From Verrucomicrobia bacterium S94 (GTDB lineage: Bacteria > Verrucomicrobiota > Kiritimatiellia > Kiritimatiellales > Pontiellaceae), in assembly GCA_004299845.1 (NCBI GenBank), contig CP036201.1, forward strand, positions 2,170,001 through 2,234,000: a stretch of 64,000 nt of DNA, given 5' to 3'. Below are positions 45,043 through 50,366 of this stretch, in pieces. The position numbers and the translations under genes are program-made. Under the pieces are notes generated by a model. It was not told the DNA's origin, did no database searches, and saw only the letters and a program-made list of their open reading frames with translations. Positions within the stretch are counted from its first letter, which is position 1. The number at the start of each line of letters is the position of its first letter.

Positions 45043-46671
45043 TCAGGGCTTCTTCTCAATATCTTTCAGCTTACGCCACAGCGTGGCAGGACTGATTCCC
45101 AACGTTCTCGCAGTTCGGGATTTATTTCCGCCGGTCCAGTCCAGCACCCGCAGAATATGCTCCTGTTCCACTTCCGCCAGCGTACGCTGTGGAGAAAATG
45201 TATCGGGAGCGGCATCGCGCGCCGGATGAAGAATGTACGGCGGCAGGTGCTCCGGCAGAATCACCCCTTTGCTGCACAGCACCACGGCCCGCTCCATGGC
45301 GTTTTCCAGCTCGCGTACATTCCCGGGCCAGCGATAGGCCTGCAGATAATTCACACATTTGGCATCCAGATGCAGATCGGGTTTATTGAACCGGCTCGAA
45401 ATACGGTTCACAAAATAACGGGCCAACGGCAGAATATCCTCCGGCCGCTCCCGCAGCGGAGGAATTTCAATTTCAATAACACGTAACCGGTAATAGAGAT
45501 CTTCACGGAAAGAACCCGACTGAACCGATGCTGCAAGATTACTGTTGGTCGCCGCCAGAATTCGGACATCCACTTTGCGGGGACGATTTTCCCCCACCCG
45601 GACAATTTCCCGTTCCTGCAGCACCCGCAGCAGTTTCATCTGAAGCGCAAGCGGAATGTCACCGATTTCATCGAGAAAAACAGTGCCGCCATCCGCCTCC
45701 TCAAACAGACCGATCCGATCGTGCTGCGCACCGGTAAAGGAACCGGCCTTGTGCCCGAACAGCTCACTGTCGAGCAGCGTTTCCGGCAGTGCCGCACAGT
45801 TAACCGCAACAAACGCATTTTCCGACCGCTTCGAACTGCGGTGAATATATCGCGCCAGAACCTCTTTCCCCACTCCGCTTTCCCCGGTGATCACCACCGA
45901 GGAATCATAGCGGGACACCCGTGCAGCCAGATCCACCACCTGTTCAAAAGCCGTGCTATGCACTTCAAAGAAAGAGGGATTGGTTTTGTTTTCGAGCTGA
46001 CTCATCCGTCGCCGCTGCCGGGCCAGCCGGAGTTCACTCTGCTTCAACTCTTCGGAAAGCTTGCGCACCTCCCGGCCGATTTCCACCTCCTGAAAGTATT
46101 CCCGGTGCAATTCGAGTTTCTGATCCCACGAGTCAACATCGCGCCCCGTGGCCCTGCATAGTTTTTTTCCGGATGCCAGACACTGATCCTCGATAAACAC
46201 CACCTCTTTACCCAGACAGAACGAAGCATAGCCACTGGCATATCCCGTCTGGATCCAGCAGGCCGGGGCCTCCGCCTCCCCGAAGGCCGCCGAAAATTCC
46301 GCCGCTTCGAAGGAATCCCTCCACGTAACCCCCATGTGCAGATATCCCTCTGCTTCATCCAGCTCAAATGCATCAATGGTCACTCTGGCCAGACCCTGCA
46401 GCGACTGCATGGCCGGTCCGGCCCGCAGCCATTCCTCCAGATTATCCCACTCAAAAATCCGCTTCATCGCAGCCGCATCGGCCTGCCCCTGAATATAGCC
46501 GAAGCGCGTCAGAATTTTACGCGCGGGCACAGGCCCGACCCCTTCAAGCAAATCTTTGCGCAGATGCGCAAAAGCCCGGATATCATGAAGAATAAGACGT
46601 CTTCCCTGCAGACTGATCAATCCGCTGGAAAAACGGATCAACTCATCCAGTTGTAGTTCTTCTGCTTTCAT
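45043..46671 (-). CDS. sigma-54-dependent activator of the XylR/DmpR type (V4R sensor)
   Basis: A 542-residue enhancer-binding protein. The N-terminal XylR_N/V4R sensor ends in [20 protein letters not shown] and [18 protein letters not shown], as in aromatic sensors XylR and DmpR. A coiled linker ([20 protein letters not shown]) is followed by the AAA+ domain with Walker A GESGVGKE, the sigma-54 loop as GSFTGA (normally GAFTGA), GTVFLDEIG and [10 protein letters not shown] Fis-type HTH ends the protein ([20 protein letters not shown]). It should respond to a small ligand and activate RNA polymerase-sigma54. It is divergent from the peptidase/kinase operon, whose promoter matches sigma-54. The start at 46671 puts the sensor at the N-terminus. 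Confidence 0.92.
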
Positions 46672-46686
46672 AAAAGTATATTTATA

Positions 46687-46723
46687 TGAAATGCATAATT
46701 TCACAATGAAATACTATTTCATT
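46687..46723. promoter_or_regulatory. two inverted repeats, candidate upstream activator sites
   Basis: TGAAAT-GCATA-ATTTCA (46687-46703) and AATGAAAT-ACT-ATTTCATT (46705-46723) share the half-site TGAAAT. Their centres are about 19 bp apart, 77-96 bp upstream of the -24 element and just upstream of the activator's own start. That is the usual place for sigma-54 enhancer sites and would allow autoregulation. Confidence 0.6.
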
Positions 46724-46789: not shown

Positions 46790-46805
46790 TGGCGCACTAA
46801 ATGCA
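46790..46805 (+). promoter_or_regulatory. sigma-54 (-24/-12) promoter of the peptidase/kinase operon
   Basis: TGGCGCACTAAATGCA has GG at 46791-46792 and GC at 46803-46804 with exactly 10 bp between, matching the consensus TGGCAC-N5-TTGC closely. It lies about 40 bp before the ATG at 46844 and is divergent from a sigma-54 activator gene. Confidence 0.72.
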
Positions 46806-46843: not shown

Positions 46844-48061
46844 ATGTATTCGATACTCAGAGGTAAAAATACCGGACTGCATGTGCAGGAAATCAATTTT
46901 GCACAGCGACTGATTCAGATTCCAAGCACCAGCGGGCATGAAGCGGAGGTTGCCGCCTGCATCGAACGTGAAATGCAGCATATGGGATACGATCAGGTGT
47001 TCCGCGATGAATTCGGGAATGTCATCGGCACCATGCTCGGACATGAAGGCAAACCGACCATTCTGCTTAACAGTCATATGGATACGGTAAATCCCGAAGA
47101 TAACGAACAATGGAAAACATCGCCCTTTGAAGGCAAACTTGCAGACGGCAAACTGTATGGAACAGGCGCGGCCGACTGTAAAGCGGGACTGGCCGCCCAG
47201 GTTTATACCGGTGCACTGCTGCAGCGCAGCCTCCTTCCTCTGCGCGGAAACCTGGTGGTTGCAGCCACGGTGGCCGAAGAAAACGGCGCCAGCGTCGGCA
47301 TCCGGGGCCTGCTGGAACAAACCCTCCCGGAACTCGGCCTGATGCCCGATTATGCCATTCTCGGCGAGCCCACCAGCCTCGGACTCTATTACGGCCACGA
47401 CGGATGGATTGAGGTGGACATACTGATCGACAGCTCCGCCACAGAAACGCTGCATGACGCCACCCGGAAAATCGCGGAGGAATATGCCGAACCGGAACAG
47501 CAGCCGTCATGGGCCGAAATCCGGGAAGTCGGCCCGATCTACCCGGACGACAGCGGTCGTTCCTGCCGAACCCTGCATGTAGCCCAGCGGATGGTTGAAG
47601 GTATGCCTGCAACCGCCGTACTCGACGAAATCAATCAGCATGTTCAACTGGCCGTCAAACCGCTGCCCGACATTCATGCGGCTGTGGCTGTCCACGAAGA
47701 GACACAGCAGATGCACAGCGGACACATGGTGACTATACGGCGCATTTCCAATGCCTGGACAACCGATCCGTTCTGCCGTCTGATCGAACGTTCACGCCAG
47801 GCCCTCGCCGCGGCCGACTGCGAAGTCCGGACCGGACGCTGGAAACTCGGAAAACTCGGCATGGGTACTGCAGGAGCTGTCCTGGTGAATGATTTTCACA
47901 TTCCCACCATCGGCTACGGTCCCGGCAACGAAGATCTGGCTCATGCCGCAAACGAACATGTGAACTGCTCCGATATTCAGCAGGCGGTATACGGCACCGC
48001 ATCCATTGTGCACGCACTGATCGGCGTACCGGTCTGCGGCTGGACCGCAGATGAAATATAA
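46844..48061 (+). CDS. M20-family metallopeptidase/deacylase, YgeY-like
   Basis: A 405-residue zinc hydrolase of the ArgE/DapE/YgeY class. Metal ligands can be placed: H and D in LLNSHMDTV, D in GTGAADCKAG, EE in VAEENGAS, E in LGEPTSLG, and H in DLAHAANEHV. The lid domain is unusual: the typical SAHGS-like loop after the GWIEV motif is replaced by IDSSATETLHDATRKI, so substrate choice may differ. AGGAG precedes the ATG. It is the first gene of the operon behind the sigma-54 promoter and precedes two acetate-kinase genes by 12 nt. It may release an acyl or amino compound feeding them; that link is inferred. Confidence 0.85.
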   Translation: MYSILRGKNTGLHVQEINFAQRLIQIPSTSGHEAEVAACIEREMQHMGYDQVFRDEFGNVIGTMLGHEGKPTILLNSHMDTVNPEDNEQWKTSPFEGKLADGKLYGTGAADCKAGLAAQVYTGALLQRSLLPLRGNLVVAATVAEENGASVGIRGLLEQTLPELGLMPDYAILGEPTSLGLYYGHDGWIEVDILIDSSATETLHDATRKIAEEYAEPEQQPSWAEIREVGPIYPDDSGRSCRTLHVAQRMVEGMPATAVLDEINQHVQLAVKPLPDIHAAVAVHEETQQMHSGHMVTIRRISNAWTTDPFCRLIERSRQALAAADCEVRTGRWKLGKLGMGTAGAVLVNDFHIPTIGYGPGNEDLAHAANEHVNCSDIQQAVYGTASIVHALIGVPVCGWTADEI

Positions 48062-48073
48062 CGGAGTGAACTC

Positions 48074-49315
48074 ATGAACATTCTCGTATTCAACTGCGGC
48101 AGCTCATCGCTGAAATACCGCCTCATTGCCTTTCCCGCCGAAACCGAAATCGCGGCGGGAGAAGCCCAGCGGGTGGGACCGGCAACCGCCGAATCCTCCC
48201 GAATCTACCACCGCGTCGGCGGAGGTGAACAGGAAGTACACTATGCTGATATGCCCAACCACGGCGCAGCATTTCGGGAAGTGATGCAATTACTGAAAGC
48301 GGCCGGCCTCGAACCCGATGCGCTGGGCCACCGGACCGTACATGGCGGAACCCGGTTCACACAGCCGACCCGCATGGATCCGGAAGCCGTTCACGAGCTG
48401 GAAACGCTCAACAATCTCGCTCCGCTGCATAATCCGCCGACCCTGAATTTAATGCACAGCTGCAGCATGCAGTACCCCGACCTTCCGCAGGTTGCGGTTT
48501 TTGACACAGCATTTCATTCAACCATTCCGGAGGAAGCCTACACCTATGCTATTCCGGAAAAACTCCGCGAGCGGCATGGCCTCCGCAAATACGGTTTTCA
48601 TGGCACCAGCCACCGTTTTGTGGTGGAGGAAGCGGCCCGCATACTGAATAAACCACTGAACACCCTGAATGCCGTCAGCTGCCACCTCGGCAGTGGCGGA
48701 GCCAGCCTGTGCGCAGTGAGAAACGGACGCAGCATAGACAATACCATGGGCTTTTCACCTCTGCAGGGACTCATCATGAGCACCCGATGCGGCGATATTG
48801 ACCCGGCACTTACCCTCAGTCTGCTGATTTCCGAAAAAGATGGAGAAGCCGCCGTTGAACAGGTGCTGAACACCCGTAGCGGCGTCCTCGGGCTCAGCGG
48901 AACTTCCGGAGATATACGCGATATCCTCACGGCCGAAGATCCCGACGAATCCGTGCGGAATACCGCCGACGCTTACATCTGGCGGATCCGCAAATATCTG
49001 GGCGCCTACCTGACCGTGGTCGGCCAACTCGATGCAGTGATTTTCACCGACACCGTGGGCGAACAGGTACCCGATGTCCGCGAAAAGGTCTGCCAGGGCT
49101 TCTCCTGTTTCGGCCTGAAGCTGGACGCCGAAAAAAACCGCGCGGCTTCCGCTCTGCCCTGCGATATCGCCGCGCCGGAAAGCCGGATGCATATTCTGGT
49201 GATCCAGACCAATGAGGAACTGGCTATTGCGCGGGAAACCTATCAATTGCTGCAACAGGAACAGTGGAACGACTGTCCGGGAAAGGAATCCGATTATGCA
49301 AAGCTTAATACTTAA
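48074..49315 (+). CDS. ackA: acetate kinase
   Basis: A 413-residue acetate/propionate kinase with all expected active-site residues: N7, S10, S12 and K14 in the first loop (FNCGSSSLK), R87 in GHRTVHGG, D144 in FDTAFHSTIP, H176 in YGFHGTSH, R238 in STRCGDID and E381 in TNEELA. It should make ATP from acyl phosphate or the reverse. GGAG precedes the start. It lies between the M20 gene and a degenerate paralogue that begins inside its last 20 bases. No phosphotransacetylase is nearby. Confidence 0.95.
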   Translation: MNILVFNCGSSSLKYRLIAFPAETEIAAGEAQRVGPATAESSRIYHRVGGGEQEVHYADMPNHGAAFREVMQLLKAAGLEPDALGHRTVHGGTRFTQPTRMDPEAVHELETLNNLAPLHNPPTLNLMHSCSMQYPDLPQVAVFDTAFHSTIPEEAYTYAIPEKLRERHGLRKYGFHGTSHRFVVEEAARILNKPLNTLNAVSCHLGSGGASLCAVRNGRSIDNTMGFSPLQGLIMSTRCGDIDPALTLSLLISEKDGEAAVEQVLNTRSGVLGLSGTSGDIRDILTAEDPDESVRNTADAYIWRIRKYLGAYLTVVGQLDAVIFTDTVGEQVPDVREKVCQGFSCFGLKLDAEKNRAASALPCDIAAPESRMHILVIQTNEELAIARETYQLLQQEQWNDCPGKESDYAKLNT

Positions 49316-50366
49316 ACTCGAAACCAATGCGCTGGCCTATGGCTTTTTCCCTTCGGGAAAAAAGACTGCGGCCCTGCAGGGATCCATTCCGGGAATCCGC
49401 AACGACATCAGTCTTTCCTCCGCCTTCAGACAGATCCTCAAACGGATTGAAGCTGAAGGGTATTCCTCATCGGAAAACACCGTCGGACTGCATGTGGCGG
49501 CAGGCGGCCTGAACTTTGCTTCACATACCGTGGCAACCCCCGAAATCATCAGAAAACTGCGTTCCCGGATTCCTGCTGCTCCCATGCATCTTCCCGCAGT
49601 TCTGGAACTCATAAAATGTGCCGGTCGCGACCTGCCGTCATGCCCGGTCGTGCTGTTTTTCGACACGGCGTTTTTCAACAAACTGCCGCCCCGGGAATAT
49701 CTCTATGCCATTAACTCAGAGCTTCTGCAAGGACCCGAAGTGCGCCGCTACGGCTATCACGGACTGTTCCATCAGGCGGCCGCGCGGGCCGTGGCAAAGT
49801 CGGCCGAACCTCCATCCAGACCGGAAAAAATCATTTCGATCTGCCTGGAGCCGCATCCGGAAATGGCGGCCATTTTAAACGGCAGACCGGTCATGGTCAG
49901 CGGCGGCGCAACCCCGCTGGAAGGTCTTCCTGGACAAACCTCCTGCGGAGACATCGACTCCGGTGTACTGCTGACGCTTGCCCGAAAAGAACAGGCAGGC
50001 CCGGAACAGCTCAATCAGCTGCTCTCCCGGCAAAGCGGAATGCTCGCCCTTGCGGGCCGACCGGTAACCATTGAGGAAGTACTGATTTCAGAAGAGCAGG
50101 AACTGGCCCTGGCCAGAAAGGTGCTGGAATACCGCATTCTCCTGCGCACCGGCATGGCGCTGGCTGCGATGGACGGATTTGACCGCATTGTATTTTCCGG
50201 ACGCTATGCAAAGGCCGGACAGACACTCGGTCCGCGTCTTCTGAAACAGCTCCCACAGAACGGAAAACCACCCCGTCCGGCCTGGCAGTGTTTTGAAACC
50301 CCGCTGATGCAGATTATGGCCGAACAGATCCCGAAACTGCGGCAGCCGGCCGACACAACAGGCTGA
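49296..50366 (+). CDS. acetate kinase-like protein lacking catalytic residues
   Basis: A 356-residue homologue of the upstream kinase, with preserved fold landmarks FDTAFF, YGYHGLFH, GATPLEGLPGQTSCGDID. Key residues are lost by position: N7 to K, S10 to T, S12 to A, K14 to A, the GHRTVHGG Arg to His and its His to Ala (GLHVAAGG), and the STRCGDID Arg to Ser. The phosphate-binding CHLGSGG motif has become CLEPHPEMA. It is shorter at the C-terminus. GGAAAGGA precedes the ATG, which overlaps ackA by 20 nt. A pseudokinase that binds or regulates the active enzyme, or an enzyme with new chemistry, are both possible. Confidence 0.85.
   Translation: MQSLILKLETNALAYGFFPSGKKTAALQGSIPGIRNDISLSSAFRQILKRIEAEGYSSSENTVGLHVAAGGLNFASHTVATPEIIRKLRSRIPAAPMHLPAVLELIKCAGRDLPSCPVVLFFDTAFFNKLPPREYLYAINSELLQGPEVRRYGYHGLFHQAAARAVAKSAEPPSRPEKIISICLEPHPEMAAILNGRPVMVSGGATPLEGLPGQTSCGDIDSGVLLTLARKEQAGPEQLNQLLSRQSGMLALAGRPVTIEEVLISEEQELALARKVLEYRILLRTGMALAAMDGFDRIVFSGRYAKAGQTLGPRLLKQLPQNGKPPRPAWQCFETPLMQIMAEQIPKLRQPADTTG

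Follow-up and report, generated by a model that had tools for sequence, protein, structure and literature searches.

Within the window, the stretch of 64,000 nucleotides of Verrucomicrobia bacterium S94 that was analysed, four genes stand side by side. The first encodes a divergent sigma-54 activator (45043 to 46671, minus strand), to which Pfam assigns XylR_N and V4R sensor domains of the DmpR/CapR/MopR type. On the plus strand follow the genes of an M20 metallo-hydrolase (46844 to 48061), of an acetate kinase (AckA) of 413 aa with intact catalytic residues and an altered phosphate-donor pocket (48074 to 49315, PF00871 E 1e-119), and of a degenerate AckA paralogue of 356 aa, here named pAck (49296 to 50366).

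A sequence-only reading had proposed pAck as an acetate-kinase pseudoenzyme in an intact reading frame, with its own ribosome site and a 20-nt overlap with the upstream gene, and all of this was confirmed. The uninterrupted ORF of 356 aa matches the Pfam profile PF00871 Acetate_kinase (E 4e-47, 161 bits at a cut-off of 22, residues 41-304); its TIGR00016 score of 148 lies below the cut-off of 293. The AlphaFold2 model (pLDDT 81, pTM 0.83) aligns with Thermotoga AckA 2iir over 345 of 356 residues at a Z of 33.3 and thus predicts an AckA fold along the whole chain; residues 206-223, the region of a LOOP3-like motif, are low-confidence. The ribosome-binding site of pAck (49282 to 49295, plus strand) is located within the ackA coding sequence, with AAAGGA ending 8 nt before the ATG, and ackA and pAck overlap by exactly 20 nt. 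This overlap and a GGA-type site are seen in all six Pontiellaceae loci, and six other loci have an overlap of 4 nt (ATGA). The overlaps point to translational coupling of ackA and pAck.

Searches for pAck covered the family, the class, the phylum and two distant groups. Of the 18 loci found, six belong to Pontiellaceae and the other twelve are spread over at least five further families of the phylum. S94 has a Pontiella-like genome (Kiritimatiellota), and the named relatives are Pontiella sulfatireligans F21, the Pontiellaceae bacteria B1224 and B12219 and a Kiritimatiellales MAG. Identity to S94 pAck is 62-82% in the other five Pontiellaceae and, where measured, 33-47% in the other families. 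Some distant copies (G642, G156) are very divergent, and a common role is less sure for them. No relative was found on viral contigs, and the matches in the plasmid collection, all below 60% identity, look like ordinary acetate kinases. The next-best matches to the pAck profile (G306, G594, G539 and G194; loci L098-L101) were rejected as ordinary AckAs with no adjoining M20 gene, activator or second AckA.

Using the residue numbering of Methanosarcina thermophila (Mt) AckA, S94 pAck has N7 changed to K, S10 to T, S12 to A, K14 to A, R91 to H and R241 to S, and the His of HGG is replaced by Ala. These changes include every loss read earlier from the sequence (N7, S12, K14, the Arg and His of the HGG region, the Arg of STRCGDID). 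H208, the ADENOSINE motif (GIGEN) and E384 are also absent, and D148 (FDTAF), H180 (YGYHG) and H123 are kept. An orthologue with intact catalytic residues was sought among the 18 copies and none was found. The PHOSPHATE1 set is intact in no pAck: K14 and S10 occur in none of the 18, N7 in two and S12 in one. All 17 copies long enough to include position 241 have Ser or Thr there, and neither an AckA-type ADENOSINE motif nor the TNEE motif carrying E384 is present in any of the 18. The retention of D148 and H180 noted before is correct for S94 but less fixed in the orthologues, where position 148 is Glu in 14 and Asp in four of the 18 copies, and where H180, present in 15, is Cys or Gln in three. 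Likewise the loss of R91 holds for the six Pontiellaceae copies, all with His, and not for the twelve others, all of which have Arg. H123 is found in 16 copies and lost in two, and the hydrophobic position 93 is not retained. Judged by these residues, pAck carries neither PHOSPHATE1, PHOSPHATE2, ADENOSINE and E384 nor the catalytic set R91/D148/H180/R241 of a functional AckA. It retains H123, Asp/Glu148, H180 and a basic residue at position 91, and has lost R241 and every donor-binding element. The counts over 18 copies thus show a site that lacks its phosphate-donor half and retains part of its acyl half. Because this degeneracy is common to 18 loci, it is neither chance nor a local error.

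A site of this kind could belong to a ligand sensor, in which pAck would bind acetate or acyl phosphate and pass on information about the pathway's state to the activator or the M20 protein. The partly retained acyl side (H123 16/18, Asp/Glu148 18/18, H180 15/18, Arg/His91 18/18) next to a vanished donor side would suit this role, and ROK repressors, which derive from sugar kinases, as well as CoaX in complex with Dop are among the other structural matches of pAck. However, R241 and the hydrophobic position 93 are lost, the activator already has a sensor domain of its own, and the fixed coupling of pAck, the last gene and directly after ackA, is to AckA. We therefore regard a sensor as unlikely.

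Where CHLGNG and GIGEN were, pAck has CLE(P/N)xPE and SGRY-type motifs. CLE(P/N)xPE and a second new motif, GxTPLEGLPGxT(S/T)CG(D/E), are nearly invariant over the 18 divergent copies, which would be expected if they formed, together with Asp/Glu148 and H180, the site of a new catalytic activity. We consider this quite improbable, as no nucleotide- or phosphate-binding loop is left in pAck, H180 is replaced in three copies and H123 missing from two, and the LOOP3-like motif, situated in the low-confidence part of the model, could equally be structural.

The dN/dS values (Nei-Gojobori) are about 0.06-0.22 for pAck, 0.035-0.18 for AckA and 0.04-0.22 for M20, those of many distant pairs being only rough because synonymous sites are saturated; for pAck pairs with unsaturated dS the range is 0.07-0.21. 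pAck is under clear purifying selection, and there are no stops or frameshifts in well-covered copies. Selection has maintained the protein over a long period. That pAck is a decaying duplicate without a role is scarcely credible: its evolution is about 1.5-2 times faster than that of AckA, and most of its catalytic residues are gone, but the dN/dS range and the undisturbed frames speak against decay, as does its presence in six or more families at 33-82% identity to the S94 copy, never absent from the module. Decay and sequencing error were thus both rejected, given 18 degenerate orthologues (intact or cut by a contig end) and the low dN/dS. With no intact orthologue and no sign of relaxed selection, the earlier suggestion that a non-catalytic or altered role is under selection is well supported. 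In the tree, pAck forms one clade and the partner AckA another, each with 100/100 support and separate from ordinary AckAs. As to pAck being a tandem duplicate of the partner AckA, the full tree leaves both options, and a reduced tree joins the two weakly (81/69).

The upstream gene had been taken for an ordinary active AckA, which needs revision. All catalytic residues as well as E384, D283 and R285 are intact in the partner AckA, and the acyl-pocket positions V93, L/I122, F179 and P232 are retained, so that a short carboxylate is still the likely acceptor. The donor site differs. PHOSPHATE2 has an extra Gly and a Ser for Asn211 (CHLGSGGAS versus CHLGN-GSS), and Gly239 is replaced by Ser (MSTR versus MGTR). 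In the ADENOSINE region (FTDTVGEQ) Asp stands for Ala330 and Thr for Gly331, the FTDT being present in 18 of 18 partners and the comparison AckAs having Ala/Gly-Gly; Asn335 is replaced by Gln, Thr, Glu, Leu, Ser or Cys. The full donor-site set is found in all 18 partner AckAs and in none of 25 comparison AckAs. By its residues the partner is a distinct AckA subfamily with an altered phosphate-donor site.

The best PDB match of the PHOSPHATE2-LOOP3 fragment is the Entamoeba enzyme EhACK (4h0o), with MSTRCGDIDP in both proteins and the partner CHLGSGGAS aligned with CHLGTGGSS, although the partner, compared over its full length, resembles ordinary AckAs more closely than it does EhACK. The residue-by-residue alignment with EhACK covers the PHOSPHATE2-LOOP3 stretch, and the ADENOSINE comparison relies on published residues (PMC5517563, PMC5931981). 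According to Dang and Ingram-Smith (PMC5517563), two features, the extra Gly and the Asp, are confined to the PPi-dependent enzyme of Entamoeba and to a few ACKs of Anaerolineaceae, whose donor is unassigned, and Gly331 is completely conserved in ATP-dependent ACKs. In EhACK the ATP cleft is blocked by T201, D322, Q323, M324 and E327 (PMC5931981), and Gly239Ser mimics EhACK (PMC4390882). With EhACK and the putative PPi-ACKs of Anaerolineaceae the partner shares the extra PHOSPHATE2 Gly, Ser/Thr211, Asp330 and a residue other than Gly at 331, and with EhACK alone also Ser239 and the absence of Asn335; residue 331 itself is Thr in the partner, Gln in EhACK and Asp in Anaerolineaceae. In contrast to these enzymes the partner comes with a pseudoenzyme and an M20 gene, and its use of PPi is a prediction. 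Since EhACK residues put into Mt or E. coli AckA gave no gain of PPi use (PMC5517563, PMC5931981), the motif set is suggestive but not sufficient.

Alternatively, the pair could be an ATP-dependent acetate or propionate kinase, in which the ADENOSINE change tunes nucleotide preference and pAck stabilises or regulates. The intact catalytic residues, E384, D283 and R285 are compatible with this, and Mt Gly331 variants still use ATP, at reduced activity (PMC4390882). On the other side, E. coli Asn337Glu, which corresponds to Asn335, raised the Km for ATP more than 45-fold (PMC4390882), and a donor-site set with the extra Gly has otherwise been reported only for PPi-type or unassigned ACKs (PMC5517563). 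We regard ATP dependence as possible, though rather less likely than not.

Studying the gene neighbourhoods, we found in most loci the order divergent sigma-54 activator, M20, AckA, pAck; the exceptions, G001 and G156, are loci that end at contig ends. With strict thresholds, searches of 387 genomes of the phylum gave an identical set of 11 genomes for the M20 subfamily and for the AckA subfamily. In ten of these 11 pAck scores above threshold downstream of AckA, and in the eleventh (G156) its reading frame continues past the contig end. Thus the dead and the live paralogue adjoin each other in every one of the 11 genomes, once cut by a contig end. The genes flanking the module vary from genome to genome, are unrelated and give no clue to a pathway; an AraC-type gene beside the activator is common only to S94 and its nearest relative. 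The unit is therefore not the gene pair, as had been thought, but a four-gene, sigma-54-controlled module.

Within Pontiellaceae the module is patchy. Six of 29 genomes carry it, and it is absent from most at 92-95% completeness (G003-G027), which points to gain and loss or to transfer. Module-bearing genomes also carry an ordinary AckA, so acetate kinase as such is not what they lack. In S94 the ordinary ackA, beside pta and outside the window (contig 2402646-2403811, minus strand), is split near GHRVVHG into two reading frames; it is intact in the relatives checked, so that the split is either a sequencing indel or a broken housekeeping ackA. In another genome (G461, locus L096, 9262-10452, minus strand) a second, ordinary AckA gene directly adjoins the activator of the module. 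Membrane pyrophosphatase was considered as a marker of PPi metabolism and dropped as uninformative, because it is present in all six module-bearing Pontiellaceae and also in most others.

The activator was given the start that its orthologues have, 46671, rather than that of the longest ORF, 46704. Its best PDB match is CapR (6iy8, 338 bits), and it adjoins the operon in every locus whose contig extends to it. The Cys and Glu positions of V4R align with the DmpR/CapR type and are mostly retained, and the position aligned with the LHS His of CapR varies between Gln, His and Leu. For this reason the ligand probably differs from those of DmpR, XylR, MopR and CapR. With these activators the protein shares XylR_N, V4R, AAA+ and HTH, but unlike them it regulates no aromatic-degradation genes here. 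A pattern match places a sigma-54 -24/-12 promoter, TGGCGCACTAAATGCA, at 46790 to 46805 (plus strand). Of 16 testable loci, 15 have the same pattern between -53 and -82 relative to the M20 start, where 0.3 are expected, and the sixteenth (G251) has a near match. A putative activator-binding site, the 13-bp inverted repeat TTTCACAATGAAA (46699 to 46711), fits the repeat pattern TTTCAnnnTGAAA and is followed by the palindrome ATGAAATACTATTTCAT at 46706-46722. Operator-like copies of TTTCAnnnTGAAA with at most one mismatch are found close to the activator end in 16 of 16 loci (0.4 expected). On the basis of the promoter, the operator-like repeats and the adjoining activator, the module is in all likelihood a sigma-54 operon that has a switch of its own.

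The first gene of this operon encodes a protein of 405 aa, which is YgeY/ArgE-DapE-like (PF01546, E 4e-27). Its best NCBIfam match is YgeY-like, at 206 bits below the cut-off of 321, and the metal-site residues are conserved. This match is its likeness to the YgeY family of M20 hydrolases, from which the module differs by the score below the family cut-off and by a kinase of the AckA family; E. coli ygeY presumably also has a sigma-54 regulator and a kinase nearby. The three f42 genomes (L059, L060, L062) have Gln in place of the second Glu of the EE pair, a residue that usually binds metal. A near-invariant CGWTxDEI tail ends the M20 protein in 11 of 11 copies and could be an interaction motif.

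Taken as a whole, the reading that we prefer sees pAck as a conserved pseudoenzyme which pairs with AckA as a non-catalytic heterodimer subunit, the pair being an acyl kinase with PPi or another non-ATP donor that works with the M20 protein; in our judgement the evidence leaves this evenly poised. Given the gene coupling and the precedent of TsaB and TsaD, pAck would most likely be the non-catalytic subunit of a heterodimer with the upstream AckA, as TsaB supports TsaD. TsaB is an inactive ASKHA paralogue in a heterodimer with TsaD (PMC9654439, PMC9889334). Both cases have an inactive and a catalytic ASKHA paralogue kept together across genomes; however, TsaB-TsaD, of tRNA t6A synthesis, belong to another ASKHA family with another reaction, and their pairing has been demonstrated, whereas that of pAck and AckA is proposed by us. 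Because the AckA pocket resembles that of the PPi-dependent Entamoeba enzyme, the pair would probably be an acyl-phosphate or acetate kinase with PPi/Pi or another non-ATP donor. It may interconvert a short carboxylate and its acyl phosphate, in whichever direction. The M20 hydrolase would act in the same pathway, cleaving an N-acyl or peptide-like substrate to release a short carboxylate, and would supply or use the carboxylate. The DmpR-type activator would turn on M20, ackA and pAck together on a small-molecule signal. A bolder version, speculative and in our view rather doubtful, is a bacterial PPi-dependent acetate kinase which works only as a heteromer with its dead AckA paralogue, is coupled to M20 and switched on by the DmpR-type sensor, the whole forming a PPi-driven acyl-phosphate pathway in Kiritimatiellota and related anaerobes.

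Acetate kinase is among the best-studied bacterial enzymes. pAck shares with the AckA family (PF00871, TIGR00016; ASKHA superfamily) the fold, the profile match, H123, Asp/Glu148 and mostly H180, and differs in having lost R241, E384 and every phosphate-donor motif. Live enzymes with a dead partner are already known, and so are PPi-type ACKs. In open-licence PMC papers, the scope of our search, we found neither an AckA pseudoenzyme or prozyme nor a conserved dead AckA together with a PPi-type AckA in a sigma-54 operon. pAck and its partner point to a paired enzyme that has not been described before, with pyrophosphate rather than ATP as its possible donor. Should the pairing prove real, the control of a live kinase by a dead paralogue could be studied in a simple system. 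Should the partner prove to use PPi, it would be, to our knowledge, the first assayed PPi-dependent acetate kinase outside Entamoeba, and what decides between ATP and PPi, a long-standing question, could be tested directly in a bacterial system.
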